DNA of 46,499 nt from an uncultured Lachnospiraceae bacterium (GTDB taxonomy: Bacteria; Bacillota; Clostridia; Lachnospirales; Lachnospiraceae), in NCBI GenBank assembly GCA_947169235.1, contig CAMVOY010000015.1:1-46499 (forward strand), written 5' to 3'. Made by a program: the position numbers and the translations under genes. Positions 36,944 through 43,413 of this stretch are shown in pieces (within the stretch, counting starts at the first letter, position 1; every line of letters begins with the position of its first letter). The notes below the pieces were generated by a model. That model did no database searches, was not told the DNA's origin, and was given only the letters and a program-made list of their open reading frames with translations.

Positions 36944-38829
36944 TCAAGCGATGGAGAGAACACGGAATAGGTAAAGTCGCTATCGCAGCTGTAATCTATA
37001 TGGCTGTTGTTGTTGGGCTGTCTGTTTTTTCGGTAAACAGGTCACATTCGATCATGGAGGAGTTGCTGAAAAAGGAGATGATAGATGTTGCCCGTTCAGC
37101 GGCTGCGTCTATTGATGGGGATTATCTTATAAGTATCCATGAGGGTGATGAGGATACAAAGGAATACAAAGAGGTTTATGACACACTCAGTGTGTTTTTG
37201 AAACAGACTCAGGCAAAATACATTTATGTTGTGCGCAGGCATGTGACAGGAAGGTTCGGATTTGTGCTTGATACCGATCCTGAGGACCCTGGTGTATACG
37301 GAGAGCCTGTCATGGGTACGGATGCCATGGAGGAGGCGGTACATGGAAATCCTGCCGTGGATGATAATGCGTACGAAGATCGATGGGGCATTTTTTACTC
37401 GGCTTACTGTCCCGTATACGATACCACCGGAAAGCTTGCCGGACTTGTTTGTGCGGACTTCCCGGCATCATGGTATGAGGGAGAGGTTGCCACGCAGATG
37501 CGTCTGATCATCATCATCGTTGCATCTGCGATAATACTTAGCGTGCTTATAATCGTGCTCGTTTTGTGGAATGCATCACGCGAGGCAAAGATCAAAGCGG
37601 GTGAGAAGGAAGAACTCGAGTTCGCGAAGTCTCTTGCGGAGGAGGCGAACAACAAACGAAATGAGTTCCTCGATATGATGTCGCATGAGATACGTACACC
37701 CATATCCATGGTCATGGGTATGGATGAGATGATACTTCGTGAATCCGTCGAGAAAAATGTCCGCGAGTACGCTGCGGAGATCAGGCATGCGGGGAATATT
37801 TTGTTGTCATTGGTTGATGAGGTCCTCGATATGTCGCAGATTGACAACGGTGATATCGATCTGCATCCTGTCCGTTACGATCCCATGCTTTTGATCTCAG
37901 ATATTTCGGAGATTGTCAGAACACGTTTGCATAACTCGAGCGTGCAGTTTTTCACCGAGATAGATGACAAGATACCAAGCATCGTATTCGGTGATTCAAC
38001 GAGGATCAAGCAGTGCCTTTTAAATCTGCTTTCGAACGCATTACGTTATACAAAGCAGGGTGAGATACATTTTTCGATAACCAGAGAACGACTTCGTGAT
38101 AACAATGTATGGCTTAAGTTCTGTGTATCCGATACCGGAGAAGGTGTACCGAGAGAAGCGGTAAAGAGGATGGTAGATTACTTTGAAACGGGCGAGTGTA
38201 TCGATGACGATATGACCGGTATCACTGAGCTTGGTCTGTCGATGGTTTCGAGATTTTTGAATCAGATGGATACCAAGCTTGAGTTTGAGAGTGAACTTGG
38301 AAAGGGTTCGAGTTTCTTCTTTTCGATCAGGCAGGGGATCATCGACGAGAAGCAGATCGGTGATTTTAAGAGGGCGAGAGAGATCATGTCCTCTTCGGAT
38401 GAGCATATCGAAAAGAAAAAATACATAGCACCTGATGCCAGGATTCTTCTTGTGGATGATGAGAAGATGAATCTCGCAGTAGTGAAGACTCTTCTTCAGT
38501 CAACACAGATAAAGATCGACACGACCATGAGCGGAGCCGAGGCTTTGGAGCTTATGGCAGAGAACACATATGATGTTCTTATATTCGATCACCTTATGAG
38601 AGAGATTGATGGCGTGGAGCTTTTGAGGCTGGTCAGAGAGAACCGCGACAATCCGAACTGCGTCGTGCCTTGTATCGTGCTTACCGCAAATGCGATGGAG
38701 GGTGCGCGTGAAGAATATCTGAAGGTCGGATTTGATGCCTATCTTTCAAAGCCGGTTAATAAGGACAGGATCGAGAGCATGATACTCAGGTATCTGCCTC
38801 GTGCCAAGGTTAAGTTTGAGACGTTTTAA
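36940..38829 (+). CDS. Hybrid sensor histidine kinase with C-terminal receiver domain
   Basis: 629 aa. ATG overlaps the stop of the first kinase (ATGA), so the two are translationally coupled and likely equimolar. Domains: membrane helix (~10-30), extracellular Cache-like sensor (~35-180; DRWGIFYSAYCPVYDTTGK), second helix (~187-210), HisKA with intact FLDMMSHEIRTPIS (His249), HATPase (N box CLLNLLSNALRYT, G1 DTGEGV; the G2 region reads GITELGLSMV, slightly off consensus), then a receiver domain (~500-620) with Asp550 as the likely phosphoacceptor, Thr in VLTANA and Lys in LSKPVN. No separate response regulator with an output domain is nearby, so the downstream target is unknown. Its signal is unknown too. 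HypC follows 13 nt later with its own RBS. Confidence 0.9.
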   Translation: MIKRWREHGIGKVAIAAVIYMAVVVGLSVFSVNRSHSIMEELLKKEMIDVARSAAASIDGDYLISIHEGDEDTKEYKEVYDTLSVFLKQTQAKYIYVVRRHVTGRFGFVLDTDPEDPGVYGEPVMGTDAMEEAVHGNPAVDDNAYEDRWGIFYSAYCPVYDTTGKLAGLVCADFPASWYEGEVATQMRLIIIIVASAIILSVLIIVLVLWNASREAKIKAGEKEELEFAKSLAEEANNKRNEFLDMMSHEIRTPISMVMGMDEMILRESVEKNVREYAAEIRHAGNILLSLVDEVLDMSQIDNGDIDLHPVRYDPMLLISDISEIVRTRLHNSSVQFFTEIDDKIPSIVFGDSTRIKQCLLNLLSNALRYTKQGEIHFSITRERLRDNNVWLKFCVSDTGEGVPREAVKRMVDYFETGECIDDDMTGITELGLSMVSRFLNQMDTKLEFESELGKGSSFFFSIRQGIIDEKQIGDFKRAREIMSSSDEHIEKKKYIAPDARILLVDDEKMNLAVVKTLLQSTQIKIDTTMSGAEALELMAENTYDVLIFDHLMREIDGVELLRLVRENRDNPNCVVPCIVLTANAMEGAREEYLKVGFDAYLSKPVNKDRIESMILRYLPRAKVKFETF

Positions 38830-38842
38830 CAGGAGATAAAAA

Positions 38843-39061
38843 ATGTGTGTAGCATTACCGGGAACGGTTATTGAAGCCGGAAGTAAAAAGTCTATTGTTG
38901 ATTTCGGTGGCAACAGAGTGGAGGCCAGATCAGGACTGGTGGATGTAAAGCCGGGAGACCGTGTTTTGGTCCATGCGGGTTGCATCCTGCAGAAGGTATC
39001 CGAGGAGGAAGCTCTGGAGCTGGAAAAGCTGTTTTCGGAGGTTACGGAGGCAGCAGAATGA
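38843..39061 (+). CDS. hypC: Hydrogenase assembly chaperone HypC
   Basis: 72 aa. Starts MCVALPGTVIEAG, the family signature, with the essential N-terminal Cys2; the rest (VDVKPGDRVLVHAGCILQKV) also matches HypC. It works with HypD to hold the Fe(CN)2CO unit and pass it to EchE. ACAGGAGATAAAAA precedes the ATG. It overlaps the hypE start by 4 nt (ATGA), which suggests coupling. Confidence 0.95.
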   Translation: MCVALPGTVIEAGSKKSIVDFGGNRVEARSGLVDVKPGDRVLVHAGCILQKVSEEEALELEKLFSEVTEAAE

Positions 39062-40077
39062 ATACTAATATAACCATGATACACGGAAGCGGCGGAGCGG
39101 CCACCGGTGAACTGATTCACGAGGTGTTTGCGTCCGCCTTTAATAATACCGTATTGGATGCGATGGAGGATGCCGCGGTGCTCGATGCCGTAAGTGTCTC
39201 AGATGGAACAGGAGCAAAACTGGCGGTGACTACTGACAGTTTTGTCGTGACGCCGGTTGAGTTCAGGGGCGGTGATATCGGCAGGCTTGCCGTATGCGGA
39301 ACAGTTAATGACCTTTTGATGAGAGGTGCCGTGCCGAAGTATATCACTTCGGCCTGGATACTGGAGACAGGCGTTGATACAGAGCTTTTAAAGAGGGTAG
39401 TCAGATCCATGGCGGAGACTGCCCGTGAGGCCGGAGTACAGGTGGTCTGTGGGGACACAAAGGTAATAGAGGGCCGGGGTGGTATCTACGTGAACACGAC
39501 CGGAGTAGGATTTGTTCCGGATAAGGTTGACATCAGTGCGTCGGGTGCGAAGCCCGGTGATGTGATCTTGGTATCGGGTACCATGGGAGATCATCATGCG
39601 GCGATACTGTCGGAGAGAATGTCAATAGAGACTGATATACGCAGCGATGTAGCGCCCTTATGCGACATGTGTGAGGGGCTCAGAGCTTTAAATGTACACT
39701 CGATGCGTGATGTTACCCGAGGTGGCCTGGGAACGGTGCTTAAGGAGCTTGCTGAGGCGTCAGCTACCGTGTTTGAGGTGGAGGATGGTCTGATACCCGT
39801 AGGAGATAAGGTAAGGGAGTTTAGCGGGCTTCTGGGACTCGATCCGATGTATATGGGTAATGAAGGAAAGATGGTGGCGATCGTTCATCCTGACGATGAG
39901 GCGAAAGCTTTGGAGATCATGAGAAACTCAAGGTATGGGCAGGACGCTGCGAGGATCGGTATAGTCGCTGCGCCGGATGAAAAAAAATGCGCCGGAAGTC
40001 TGTATGCCAAGACGTCGATAGGTGGGATAAGAGAGTTGGATGTATTGCAGGGTGAAGGGCTGCCAAGGATATGCTAG
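39058..40077 (+). CDS. hypE: Hydrogenase expression/formation protein HypE
   Basis: 339 aa from ATG 39058, in the ATGA overlap with hypC; an earlier in-frame start at 38980 lies in hypC. It is a PurM/ThiL-like ATPase: MIHGSGGAATGELIHEVF at the N-terminus, TTDSFVVTPVEFRGGDIG, TVNDLLMRGAVPKYIT, GDTKVIEGRG, DVTRGGLGTVLKEL. It ends in GLPRIC, whose final Cys is the carbamoyl acceptor from HypF, then dehydrated to thiocyanate. The stop codon TAG (40075-40077) overlaps the terminal inverted repeat of the palindromic element. Confidence 0.95.
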   Translation: MNTNITMIHGSGGAATGELIHEVFASAFNNTVLDAMEDAAVLDAVSVSDGTGAKLAVTTDSFVVTPVEFRGGDIGRLAVCGTVNDLLMRGAVPKYITSAWILETGVDTELLKRVVRSMAETAREAGVQVVCGDTKVIEGRGGIYVNTTGVGFVPDKVDISASGAKPGDVILVSGTMGDHHAAILSERMSIETDIRSDVAPLCDMCEGLRALNVHSMRDVTRGGLGTVLKELAEASATVFEVEDGLIPVGDKVREFSGLLGLDPMYMGNEGKMVAIVHPDDEAKALEIMRNSRYGQDAARIGIVAAPDEKKCAGSLYAKTSIGGIRELDVLQGEGLPRIC

Positions 40078-40306
40078 CGTAGCACGTCGGACAGATTCAT
40101 AGATTCTTGTCTCACTCTATGCCAAATGCTGCGCATTTGCCCAAGCCGTTCGACTGCGAACTATGTCATCTGTCCTGAGAGGAGTAGTGTGAAAAATCAC
40201 ACTGATATGCTGATTTTTCACACGGCTATTTGTGCCGGAGCGTCACAAATAGCCACTGATGGCAGACGAGAACTGGATGTTCTCGTCGCCACTCCGTCGC
40301 TACGCT
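40076..40306 (+). repeat. Palindrome-rich 231-bp element between hypE and hypD (MITE-like or structured RNA)
   Basis: Ends: AGCGTAGC (40076-40083) and GCTACGCT (40299-40306) are perfect 8-bp inverted repeats. Inside, six further stems occur without overlap or with a single shared base: GGACAGAT-t-CATAG (40089-40102) with CTATG-tc-ATCTGTCC (40161-40175), enclosing CAAATGC/GCATTTG (40123-40129/40133-40139) and GTTCG/CGAAC (40148-40152/40157-40161); GTGTGAAAAATCA/TGATTTTTCACAC (40187-40199/40211-40223); GGCTATTTGTG/CACAAATAGCC (40224-40234/40244-40254); GGC-a-GACGAGAAC/GTTCTCGTC-GCC (40261-40273/40279-40290). No T tract, no protein-coding gene. The hypD RBS lies just outside. Could be an untranslated mobile palindromic element or a folded RNA in the hyp transcript. 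Confidence 0.7.
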
Positions 40307-40323
40307 CCGGAATGGGGAGTAAT

Positions 40324-41358
40324 ATGGAAAGTATCAAGGAATATCTGGCCGGTTATGATGGACCTGCCATGAATATCATGGAGATATGTGGAAGCCATAC
40401 TGAAGCGGTGGCTCGCTTTGGAATACCATCATTGTTATCTGACAAGATCAAGCTGATATCGGGGCCGGGGTGTCCCGTATGCGTGACTACATCGGCGTAT
40501 ATTGACAGGTTGCTTACGCTTGCAAAAGAGGGGAATGTGATCGCAACATTCGGTGATCTTATCAGGGTGCCGGGCAGTCATGATTCGCTGTCTGACGCAA
40601 AGGGTGAAGGCGCGGATATACGCATGGTTTATTCGCCGCTTGATGTGGTGGATCTGGCTGAAAGCGAGCCGGATAAGAGTTTTATTTTTGCGGCGGTCGG
40701 ATTCGAGACGACCACACCGGTGTATGCGCTACTTGTGGAAGAGATCATCGGGCATGGTCTTAAGAATATCAGGCTTCTCACTGCGTTGAAAACCATGCCG
40801 GAAGTTGTAGACGAGATGCTGGCCAAAGGTGCGCCTATAGACGGTTTTCTGGCACCGGGACATGTGTCTGTTGTTACCGGTTATGACATCTTTAAGCCGA
40901 TCGCACAAAAGTATGATATCCCATTTGCTGTCTCCGGGTTTGAGGGCGAGGAGATATTGATCGCATTATATGAGGTGGTCAGGAACAGAGGAAAGGGCGT
41001 TATCAGAAACTGTTATCCGACTGTGGTCTCCGCCGAAGGAAATATTGTTGCAAAGAAAAAGACAGATAAGTATTTTGAAAAATGCGATGCAGCGTGGAGA
41101 GGACTCGGCGTCGTGTCCGGTTCGGGGATGAAGCTGAGAGATGAGTACAGCATTTATGATGCCGGAAGCGACGGGCTTGATTCGGATACAAAGATGAATC
41201 CGGCATGCTCGTGTGCCATGGTTCTCACGGGACGAATGAGGCCGTATGAGTGTCCGCTGTATGGAAAGGTATGTAATCCCGGTAACCCTCAGGGAGCATG
41301 TATGGTATCCACGGAGGGGAGTTGTTATTCTTACTTTGTTAACAAGCGTAGGGATTAG
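40324..41358 (+). CDS. hypD: Hydrogenase formation protein HypD
   Basis: 344 aa from ATG 40324 (MESIKEYLAGYDGPAMN), chosen because ATGGGGAG lies just upstream; the frame stays open back to 40126 only because it crosses the palindromic element. Family motifs: MEICGSHTEAVARFG (catalytic Cys), GPGCPVCVTT, VGFETTTP, and the C-terminal [4Fe-4S] cysteines in ACSCAMVLTG...YECPLYGKVCNPGNPQGACMVS. HypD with HypC assembles the Fe(CN)2CO ligand set. Other Hyp proteins nearby are F, C and E; nickel-inserting HypA and HypB are not in the window. Confidence 0.96.
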   Translation: MESIKEYLAGYDGPAMNIMEICGSHTEAVARFGIPSLLSDKIKLISGPGCPVCVTTSAYIDRLLTLAKEGNVIATFGDLIRVPGSHDSLSDAKGEGADIRMVYSPLDVVDLAESEPDKSFIFAAVGFETTTPVYALLVEEIIGHGLKNIRLLTALKTMPEVVDEMLAKGAPIDGFLAPGHVSVVTGYDIFKPIAQKYDIPFAVSGFEGEEILIALYEVVRNRGKGVIRNCYPTVVSAEGNIVAKKKTDKYFEKCDAAWRGLGVVSGSGMKLRDEYSIYDAGSDGLDSDTKMNPACSCAMVLTGRMRPYECPLYGKVCNPGNPQGACMVSTEGSCYSYFVNKRRD

Positions 41359-41372
41359 AATGGAGGAAAGCG

Positions 41373-42605
41373 ATGATAAACAATAAAAAAAGAAAGCTGC
41401 TCATAATGACTCTTGTATTTGCACTTGTCCTGTGTATATCAGGTGAGACCGGAGCGGTAGCGGAGGTAACCGAAGAGCCTGTAGCGACACCGACAGAGAC
41501 ACCGTATTCTACCGAGGCACCGAAGCCGACCGAAACATCAGAGCCTGCCGTGACAGCAGAGCCGACTGAAACGCCGAAGCCGACCAAAACACCCAAGCCG
41601 ACCAAAACACCCAAGCCCACACCGAATGTGACCAAGGTGACGTTAAGCTGCGCCGGTGACTGCACGATCGGAACGGATCCCGCATTTAACTGGTCGACCA
41701 GCCTGAATGCAATGGTAAATAAGGTCAAGGACAAGAGTTATTTCTTCAAAAATGTTCAGAAGTACTTTGCCAAAGACGATATGACGATCGTTAATTTTGA
41801 AGGGACACTTACTTCGAGAACAACCCGCGCTGATAAAAAGTTTACGTTCAAGGGCCCGGCTTCATACATCAATATTATTAAAAAGGGTAATATAGAGGCG
41901 GTCGCGTTTGCAAACAATCACTGCAGAGATTTTGGACAGGGAAGCTATGAAGACACCATAAAGGTGTTTAAAAACAAAGGGGTAAAATACTCATCCTACG
42001 CCAAAGTAAGCGCGTATAACGTGAAAAAGAATCACACAAAGATAAAGATCGGAATGATCTCCGTGAATGGACTCGAGGGATATCAATCCTCTGCAAACCA
42101 TATTAAAAACGGCATCAAAAAGCTCAAAAAGAAAAAGTGCAACATGATCATAGTGAGTATGCACGCCGGTATAGAGAGACAGTATACACCTGATGGAAAT
42201 CAAAAAAGCATAGCTCATTATGCTGTCGATCAGGGAGCGGATCTGGTGCTCGGTCATCATCCGCATGTCCTTCATGGAGTGGAAAAATACAAAGGTGTAT
42301 ATATCGTTTACAGTCTTGGTAATTTCTGTTTTGGCGGAAACTCAAATCCGTCTGACAAGGATACGATGATCGCGAGACCGCAGTTTACCTTCAGGGAAGG
42401 AAAGCTTCAAAAAAAGAAAACCTCACTCAGATTGATCCCATGCTGCCTCTCATCTACGACCGCATACAACAACTATCAGCCCACTCCGAAAAAGGGAGCT
42501 GAGAAAAAAAGAGTACTTAGAAAAATAAATAACATGTGTGAGGCGCTCGGAACTACTCTGAAAAACAGTTCGGGAAAGTTGACGACAACTTGTATGAAAA
42601 AATGA
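41373..42605 (+). CDS. CapA family secreted metallophosphatase-like protein
   Basis: 410 aa; ATGGAGGAAAG precedes the ATG. Signal peptide (~8-29), then a Thr/Pro/Glu/Lys linker (residues ~30-85, with PKPTKT repeats) that likely spans the cell wall, then a CapA/PgsA-type metallophosphatase domain (~88-380): CAGDCTIGTD, VNFEGTLTSR, FANNHCRDFG, VSMHAGIE, GHHPHVLHGVEKY, YSLGNFCFGG. CapA domains occur with poly-gamma-glutamate synthesis but also alone in clostridial cell-surface proteins; no pgsBC lies nearby, so the substrate is unknown. It follows hypD by 14 nt and might be in the same transcript, with no obvious functional link. Confidence 0.88.
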   Translation: MINNKKRKLLIMTLVFALVLCISGETGAVAEVTEEPVATPTETPYSTEAPKPTETSEPAVTAEPTETPKPTKTPKPTKTPKPTPNVTKVTLSCAGDCTIGTDPAFNWSTSLNAMVNKVKDKSYFFKNVQKYFAKDDMTIVNFEGTLTSRTTRADKKFTFKGPASYINIIKKGNIEAVAFANNHCRDFGQGSYEDTIKVFKNKGVKYSSYAKVSAYNVKKNHTKIKIGMISVNGLEGYQSSANHIKNGIKKLKKKKCNMIIVSMHAGIERQYTPDGNQKSIAHYAVDQGADLVLGHHPHVLHGVEKYKGVYIVYSLGNFCFGGNSNPSDKDTMIARPQFTFREGKLQKKKTSLRLIPCCLSSTTAYNNYQPTPKKGAEKKRVLRKINNMCEALGTTLKNSSGKLTTTCMKK

Positions 42606-42834: not shown

Positions 42835-42863
42835 TTGCAATTACGTGTGAATAGTATTATATT
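42835..42863 (+). promoter_or_regulatory. Promoter of the DUF6465-like gene
   Basis: TTGCAA (42835-42840), 17-nt spacer, TATATT (42858-42863). The -35 hexamer is the same as at rpmB. Confidence 0.65.
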
Positions 42864-42915
42864 AGTGTATGCAACGTATAGATTTTTTGTCCGATTCATA
42901 AAAGGAGAAATGAGC

Positions 42916-43413
42916 ATGGATATCAAAACAACCACATCCAAGGCACCTGTAGCAAAGACTACAGAGGCAGCAAAGACAACTGAGGCTGCAAAGACTACTA
43001 CAACAGCAGCTAAGCCGGCAGCAGCTAAGCCTGCAGCAAAGAAGCCTGCAGCAAAGAAACCTGCAGCTAAAAAGCCTGCAGCAAAGAAGCCTGCAGCTAA
43101 GAAGACTACTGCAGCTAAGAAGCCTGCAGCAGCTAAGAAGGCACCTGCAAAGAAGGCTACTACTAAGAGAGGCCGCAAGCCGGGTTCAAAGAATAAGGTA
43201 GTTGAGAGCGTACAGGAGACAATCGTACAGGTTGATGGCGTAGATATCGCTGTAGCTGAGACACTTGTTACCCGTGTTAAGGAGGCATACAAGAACTCAG
43301 GTCATCGTATCGGAAACATCAAGTCTCTCCGCATCTACATCAATGTTAATGATCGCAAGGCTTACTATGTGATCAATGACAAGCAGGATGAGCAGAATGT
43401 AATCGATCTTTGA
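42916..43413 (+). CDS. DUF6465-like protein with a histone-H1-like Lys/Ala/Pro tail
   Basis: 165 aa from ATG 42916, the start best spaced from AAAGGAG (42901-42907); ATG 42910 is too close. Residues ~1-90 are low complexity: KTTEAAKTT repeats, then five AAKKP-type units and KRGRKPGSKNK, an AT-hook-like basic motif at its end. The C-terminal ~70 residues (VQVDGVDIAVAETLVTRVKE, LRIYINVNDRKAYYVIND) match the small domain annotated as DUF6465 in Lachnospiraceae. I infer a DNA- or RNA-associated, nucleoid-type role from composition only. Codons are strongly biased to gca/gct-aag, as in highly expressed genes. Own promoter and terminator. Confidence 0.75.
   Translation: MDIKTTTSKAPVAKTTEAAKTTEAAKTTTTAAKPAAAKPAAKKPAAKKPAAKKPAAKKPAAKKTTAAKKPAAAKKAPAKKATTKRGRKPGSKNKVVESVQETIVQVDGVDIAVAETLVTRVKEAYKNSGHRIGNIKSLRIYINVNDRKAYYVINDKQDEQNVIDL

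Follow-up and report, generated by a model that had tools for sequence, protein, structure and literature searches.

What occupies the gap between the hydrogenase maturation genes hypE and hypD in a 46,499-nucleotide stretch of DNA (the window) from an uncultured Lachnospiraceae bacterium, and does it act on hypD? An initial annotation, made from the letters alone, described the gap as one palindrome-packed unit enclosed by 8-bp terminal inverted repeats, with three candidate identities—that is, a small non-autonomous mobile element, a REP-like repeat, or a folded RNA controlling hypD. The gap is instead made up of two unrelated dispersed repeats lying side by side, the second of which, element B, probably represents a family of non-autonomous elements, roughly 100-170 bp (about 130 bp) in length, that transposes in trans into GGAG-rich Shine-Dalgarno (SD) sites.

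Two dispersed repeats between hypE and hypD

A similarity search of the organism's own genome (G000; 2.37 Mb in 106 contigs, 96.55% complete) with positions 40060-40320 as the query and a cut-off of E <= 1 gave 33 matches, part of which are palindromes matching themselves in reverse. These matches form two groups, one covering 40086-40181 (element A) and the other covering 40171-40319 (element B), and because no other listed match covers both, the gap is read as two adjacent repeats (Table 1) rather than as a single element. The palindromes themselves are real: perfect 13-bp arms at 40187-40199/40211-40223, a further pair of 14 bp at 93%, a 9-bp pair at 40235-40243/40302-40310, a 7-bp pair at 40123-40129/40133-40139, and an 8-bp pair at 40089-40096/40168-40175 were recovered, and the reading frame was confirmed to be open into hypD from 40126. 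The supposedly terminal 8-bp pair (40076-40083/40299-40306) also exists, but it does not mark an element boundary, its arms lying in the flank of A and inside B and matching no dispersed unit; by arithmetic, an 8-mer inverted pair is expected about 0.4 times by chance in 231 bp. Terminal inverted repeats of the whole gap were thus rejected, the boundaries fitting no dispersed unit seen. The original description is therefore partly confirmed, in its palindromes and not in its unit, and its interpretation is partly supported.

Table 1. Features of the hypE-hypD region, in positions of the window.
Feature	Position	Strand	Remarks
hypE, upstream gene	38980..40077	+	TIGR02124, 364.8 bits; ORF given, gene may start further downstream
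Element A, separate dispersed repeat	about 40086..40180	+	begins about 8 nt past hypE stop
Outer stem of element A	40089-40096/40168-40175	+	8-bp pair
Upstream SD-like copy GAGGAGTA, 5' flank of B	40179..40186	+	7/8 identical to 40314-40321
Element B, 126 bp, GTGTGAAAAATC to CGCTCCGGAA	40187..40312	+	ends read from copies and empty sites
Hairpin H1, 13-bp stem	40187..40223	+	pairs kept in A1; many rows found by a pattern that includes H1
Hairpin H2, loop CCGGAGCGT at 40235-40243	40224..40254	+	pair search, alignment
Hairpin H3 with GGC/GCC base	40261..40290	+	alignment
Pseudoknot 3' strand, pairs with 40235-40243	40302..40310	+	6/9 pairs changed on both sides
Downstream SD copy TGGGGAGTA, before hypD	40313..40321	+	equivalent SD at other B copies
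hypD, host gene of the window's B copy	40324..41358	+	TIGR00075, 361.6 bits

Element A has six matching places in the own genome, including that in the window; two others cover most of its length (C53 and C63:6752) and three are partial (C25, C63:4043, and C63:3939), with further partial matches in genomes G011 and G016. Its outer stem (GGACAG..CTGTCC) was observed to vary compensatorily (window 40086-40180; L017, L020, and L024), and the fuller own-genome copies appear, by eye, to lie shortly past the stop codons of upstream genes. Elsewhere in the window, an ORF at 42835-43413 contains a Lys/Ala/Pro-rich repeat tract, which we take to resemble histone H1-like bacterial proteins.

Copies, host genes, and position of element B

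The own genome contains 15 copies of B and a truncated one on contig C4 (a covariance model gave 16 matches, of which one, a reverse-strand artefact, was left out). The truncated copy (L026 around 2003-2034, G000 C4:66802) ends at ATATG within the H1 loop, where it runs into what may be a gene start, a form that a deletion between two ATATG words would leave. B was found in 21 of 41 relatives, including the own genome, by BLAST, and, in large scans with stricter filters than this BLAST search, in 9 of 196 genomes of the order, including the own genome (covariance-model scan), and in 1 of 398 genomes of the phylum, namely the own genome only. An exact H1+H2 pattern, scanned in GTDB species genomes, matched at least 117 stretches, and the names among the 80 matches listed are mostly Lachnospiraceae (Roseburia, Acetatifactor, Eisenbergiella, Lachnospira, and Lachnoclostridium). 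B is accordingly spread patchily in the Lachnospiraceae and another family of their order, to judge by the probable family assignment of the carriers. Loci of CAMECH01 (L116, L122, L123, and others), labelled uncultured Bacteroides, hold many copies of B of an otherwise Lachnospiraceae type, and this genome is possibly a misnamed bin. At L082, L117, L145, and L189, members of different subfamilies lie in tandem or close to one another.

Carriage by phages or plasmids was considered and rejected, the exact H1-H2 pattern giving no match in IMG/VR and blastn giving no match to B in plasmids; nor were HypD relatives confirmed in viral contigs. Three records named Bacteriophage sp. (L342, L343, and L344; MT837007.1, MT838414.1, and MT836788.1) do carry B. 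Their proteins, read as enolase, FeoB, and Tex, are presumably bacterial housekeeping proteins, and the records are therefore probably bacterial contamination.

The genes downstream of B are unrelated (17 were translated and nine downstream proteins scanned). They include hypD and genes for chorismate mutase, EF-Ts, YebC, thioredoxin, RuvA, TypA, and a LolD-like ABC ATPase, some of the nine scanned proteins coming from relatives rather than the own genome and several being N-terminal parts below a profile's cut-off; no conserved association with one gene or pathway was found among them. In genome G023, ten copies are 98-100% identical to that in the window. Unrelated downstream genes, patchy distribution, and these near-identical copies together indicate that B is a mobile element and not a regulator of hydrogenase maturation. 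Of the identities first proposed, the small non-autonomous mobile element is supported by many near-identical dispersed copies, by relatives with empty sites, and by duplicated flanks. The RNA controlling hypD is not supported, since copies precede unrelated genes and two relatives (G011 and G002) are without B in the hypE-hypD gap.

B sits on the coding strand, generally a few nt ahead of a start codon. All 15 own-genome copies found by the model are followed by ATG within 2-6 nt of the model end, and these ATGs open same-strand ORFs of at least 93 codons. Applied to 100 of the at least 117 GTDB loci, the covariance model, which was built on 44 diverse copies (A1), gave 108 matches, leaving 97 after 11 cut by contig ends were dropped. 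A start codon 1-4 nt past the model end with an open ORF (ATG, GTG, or TTG; at least 30 codons, or 10 if running off the contig) was found at 84 of the 97, against 605 of 4850 random positions in the same loci, and the spacing is exactly 2 nt in 67 of the 84. The 13 exceptions comprise one running into Ns, one followed by another copy, and several with an ATG and a short ORF. In other genomes, 44 of 46 model matches pass a slightly wider rule, a set that counts one copy twice (L278/L309), contains an apparently identical pair (L275 and L283), and has some G091 and G031 copies in common with the training set of the model. Since the model includes the 3' SD, sets found with it contain an SD in part by construction; the start codon, unlike the 3' SD, lies outside the model. 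In the copies examined, B and the downstream gene run in the same direction. The targeting of SDs could look sharper than it is if insertions inside genes are selected against.

Flanking SD sequences and empty sites

SD-like sequence usually lies on both sides of B, and a single SD remains in relatives that lack the insertion. A search of ten genomes with the joined flanks of 21 copies was followed by a comparison of 19 locus pairs: one partner carries B (L251), one carries a decayed copy (L249), and 17 lack B in the stretch shown, most of them being too diverged upstream to place the junction and two being clear cases. In the first, before chorismate mutase (L009), the own genome has TGGAGGATTA on both sides of 126 bp—that is, a 10-bp duplication—and the empty site in G011 reads AATAAAGTGGAGGATTAATATGCC (96% identity over the joined query), with AATAAAGTGGAGGATTAATATG where the own genome has TGGAGGATTA flanking B twice. 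In the second (L023), G002 has a single TGGAGGATAATATG; in the own genome, a second element type sits here after the remnant of a first, so that elements land in the SDs of earlier elements, and stacking of this kind was seen at L082, L023, and L050. Before tsf (L014), B is absent from G011 and G016 and present in G002.

Over 141 copies, the match between 5' and 3' flanks had a mean score of 3.38, against 1.97 +/- 0.17 for shuffled pairs, in a test that included one spurious row (140 after removal), non-independent copies, and shuffling across rather than within genomes. Most flank pairs are imperfect repeats, a score of 9 or more being reached by 19 of the 141 copies, where 3.8 would be expected (the maximum over 200 shuffles being 9). 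GGAG occurs in the 14 bases upstream of 10 of the 15 own copies, so upstream SD copies have often decayed or were imperfect from the start. The window's flank pair matches at 7 of 8 positions. The corresponding site in G011 is a short gap, GTCGGACAGATTCATATGGAGAATAATATGG, with the first 16 nt of A kept and a single SD, a comparison complicated by most of A missing, A having been either lost there or gained in the own genome; in G002, hypE and hypD appear to overlap in our reading of the alignment. B is therefore absent from this site in both relatives. The clean 10-bp case, compared with its empty site, and the flank-pair test thus establish insertion with target duplication.

The same flanks bear on another route, namely site-specific recombination of a circular intermediate, in which the SD would serve as a short common core, with the downstream SD often brought along from the previous site, in analogy to the coupling sequences of Tn916. 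The downstream SDs are indeed often lineage-like, six G023 copies having the 3' SD TGGAGATTA in common and several G014 copies having TGGGGATTA, with differing upstream SDs, and the excess of matching flank pairs over shuffles is what mixed heteroduplex resolution would give; however, no conserved arms were noticed in the targets beyond the SD and the start codon. The differing upstream flanks in G023 may reflect either decay or, on the recombination account, carry-over from the donor site, and we regard this route as possible, if rather unlikely.

Fold, candidate enzymes, and known systems

The RNA modelled from 40178-40330 has a fold energy of -68.1 kcal/mol, against -40.6 +/- 3.84 for shuffles (z = -7.16). 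In a plain MAFFT alignment of 44 distinct sequences, with the structure taken from the window's copy, 87.7% of cells are paired, a share that falls to 35-51% on sliding by 1-3 columns; two-sided changes occur in 27 of 45 pairs, and each of the five measures observed lay beyond the values from all 500 shuffles. The conserved fold of B comprises three hairpins and a pseudoknot that joins the H2 loop to the 3' end, and its covariation is strong. The conservation of H1 is partly a matter of ascertainment, many rows having been found by H1 sequence; loci found otherwise have diverged H1 stems (L095, L145, and L091). Covarying stems confined to hyp loci had been suggested as the mark of an RNA; strong covarying stems are present, but at scattered loci. 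The two ends of B, GTGTGAAAAATC and CGCTCCGGAA, have no inverted repeat in common.

For transposition in trans, we infer that a putative enzyme would recognize folded B, by H1 at the 5' end and the loop-to-3'-end pseudoknot at the 3' end. The target would be opened just past the SD, as a rule 2-3 nt ahead of the start codon, and about 8-10 bp, SD included, would be duplicated on repair. The downstream SD copy would keep the correct spacing to the start codon and serve the gene, so that insertion before housekeeping genes would be tolerated, and SD duplication would provide a safe landing site for B.

A cis-regulatory, riboswitch-like leader RNA, kept for translational control of the downstream gene, would also account for the fixed place ahead of the start codon, for the strong covariation, and for a pseudoknot that adjoins the SD. 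Unrelated host genes, patchy presence, and empty sites argue against such a leader, as do partition-function folds, which mask neither SD consistently, and we consider it very improbable. In these folds, SD2 was more open than SD1 in 18 or 19 of 44. A conserved pyrimidine tract after H3 (CCUCC/ACUCC/CCCCG) is SD-complementary and close to the stretch of B in which complementarity is highest, its pairing with the SD being modestly better than that of shuffled letters (-5.65 vs -4.95 +/- 0.26); the tract showed no covariation with each copy's own flank (p = 0.43). Masking of the upstream SD by this tract was rejected as inconsistent, SD1-tract pairing being 0.22-0.26 on average. The tract is a candidate guide if B belongs to a new class of mobile elements in which a mobile, SD-guided RNA or single-strand DNA would locate the sites of translation initiation, perhaps through base pairing; we hold this idea to be unlikely.

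From element position 3 onwards (GTG AAA), many copies have GTG or TTG at normal spacing after the upstream SD. The frame from this GTG contains 65 stops, against 154 and 138 in the other frames, and is fully open in 24 of 61 distinct copies. Because lengths are not multiples of three, the stops in the other frames are consensus-driven, and the rows are related, a translated small ORF is not claimed.

Profiles of candidate enzymes were tested in eight carriers and four genomes without a model match, all of them draft genomes in which a gene may be missed. Y1_Tnp has no match in carriers G000, G023, G002, G011, and G179, and is present in G014, G091, and G031. RVT_1 has no match in carriers G000, G023, G179, and G031, and is present in G014, G002, G011, and G091, as well as in each of the four genomes that gave no model match. 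IS110 is over the cut-off in G000, G011, G014, G179, and G031, below it in G023 and G091, and not found in G002. Thus, none of the three was found in every carrier. No longer element with the ends of B was found at orphan 3' ends in the stretches fetched from fragmented drafts.

These results bear on the REP-like identity initially offered. Movement by a Y1 (RAYT) transposase would suit small palindromic extragenic repeats in many copies, as would the GGAG at the hairpin foot, which resembles some REP tetranucleotides, and the presence of Y1_Tnp in three carriers. B nevertheless differs from REP and REPIN in its larger pseudoknotted fold and its target duplication, which single-strand Y1 transposition, to our knowledge, does not give, and Y1 was not found in five of the eight carriers tested, namely the own genome and four of the seven others. 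We judge this identity extremely improbable.

A further possibility is spread by RNA copies, in which the folded transcript would be reverse transcribed into SD sites in the manner of a bacterial SINE. Flank duplication without inverted repeats, a structured sense-strand RNA, copies without the 5' part (e.g., L045 and L074), and RVT_1 in four carriers are consistent with it. Against this stand the four carriers without RVT_1, one of which, G023, nevertheless has the ten near-identical copies, and the wobble pairs, which are only slightly above A-C mismatches (G-U 38 vs A-C 23 in H1, H2, and the pseudoknot, a weak excess); spread by this route seems very unlikely. The 5' end of B, GTGTG, resembles the GUGYG of group II introns, from which B differs in its length of about 130 nt and in RVT_1 being undetected in four of eight carriers, including its own genome; no Rfam intron match occurred in the stretches scanned. 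In IS110 bridge RNA elements, as in B, a structured RNA is tied to a mobile element. Unlike these, B has a longer target duplication, and IS110 matches were absent from G002 and below the cut-off in G023 and G091.

B thus remains, in our reading, a non-autonomous element moved in trans. Like MITEs (pneumococcal BOX/RUP and enterobacterial RU/ERIC), it is small, non-autonomous, dispersed, and structured, with target duplications. In contrast to MITEs, it has no terminal inverted repeats, no partner transposon was found, its target is the SD, and it is co-directional in the copies examined. Rfam gave no match at E<=1 over window 38000-42000, and, at six loci with variants, a T-box outside the element and one miRNA match over a copy (30.8 bits, gathering 84). 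At L272, a T-box leader match at 1216-1467 (E 1e-17, 85.5 bits, gathering 93) lies directly upstream of a copy at 1501. In the passages available of a study listing 250 mobile or repeat candidates (PMC11109978), MRSC-65-2, the one of these with which B was compared among the 250, is likewise an abundant structured motif with covariation, but it consists of a single long stem with a UYCCGG repeat, unlike the three hairpins and pseudoknot of B (PMC11109978). No description of an SD-targeted element was found in the accessible part of the full-text literature, nor in passages of PMC2229807, PMC10969869, PMC11109978, PMC2267715, and PMC3049150, and the word 'Shine' is absent from the main text of the two MITE reviews searched for it.

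Among small non-autonomous mobile elements, B is unusual in targeting the SD, in having no terminal inverted repeats, and in conserving a pseudoknot. If the proposed mechanism is true, B would be a mobile element using the ribosome-binding site as a safe landing place, with housekeeping genes kept working. The family would then be an orphan mobility system, the enzyme of which could be hunted by genetics, a test case for the origin of insertion specificity toward translation signals, and a portable structured 5' leader in Lachnospiraceae.
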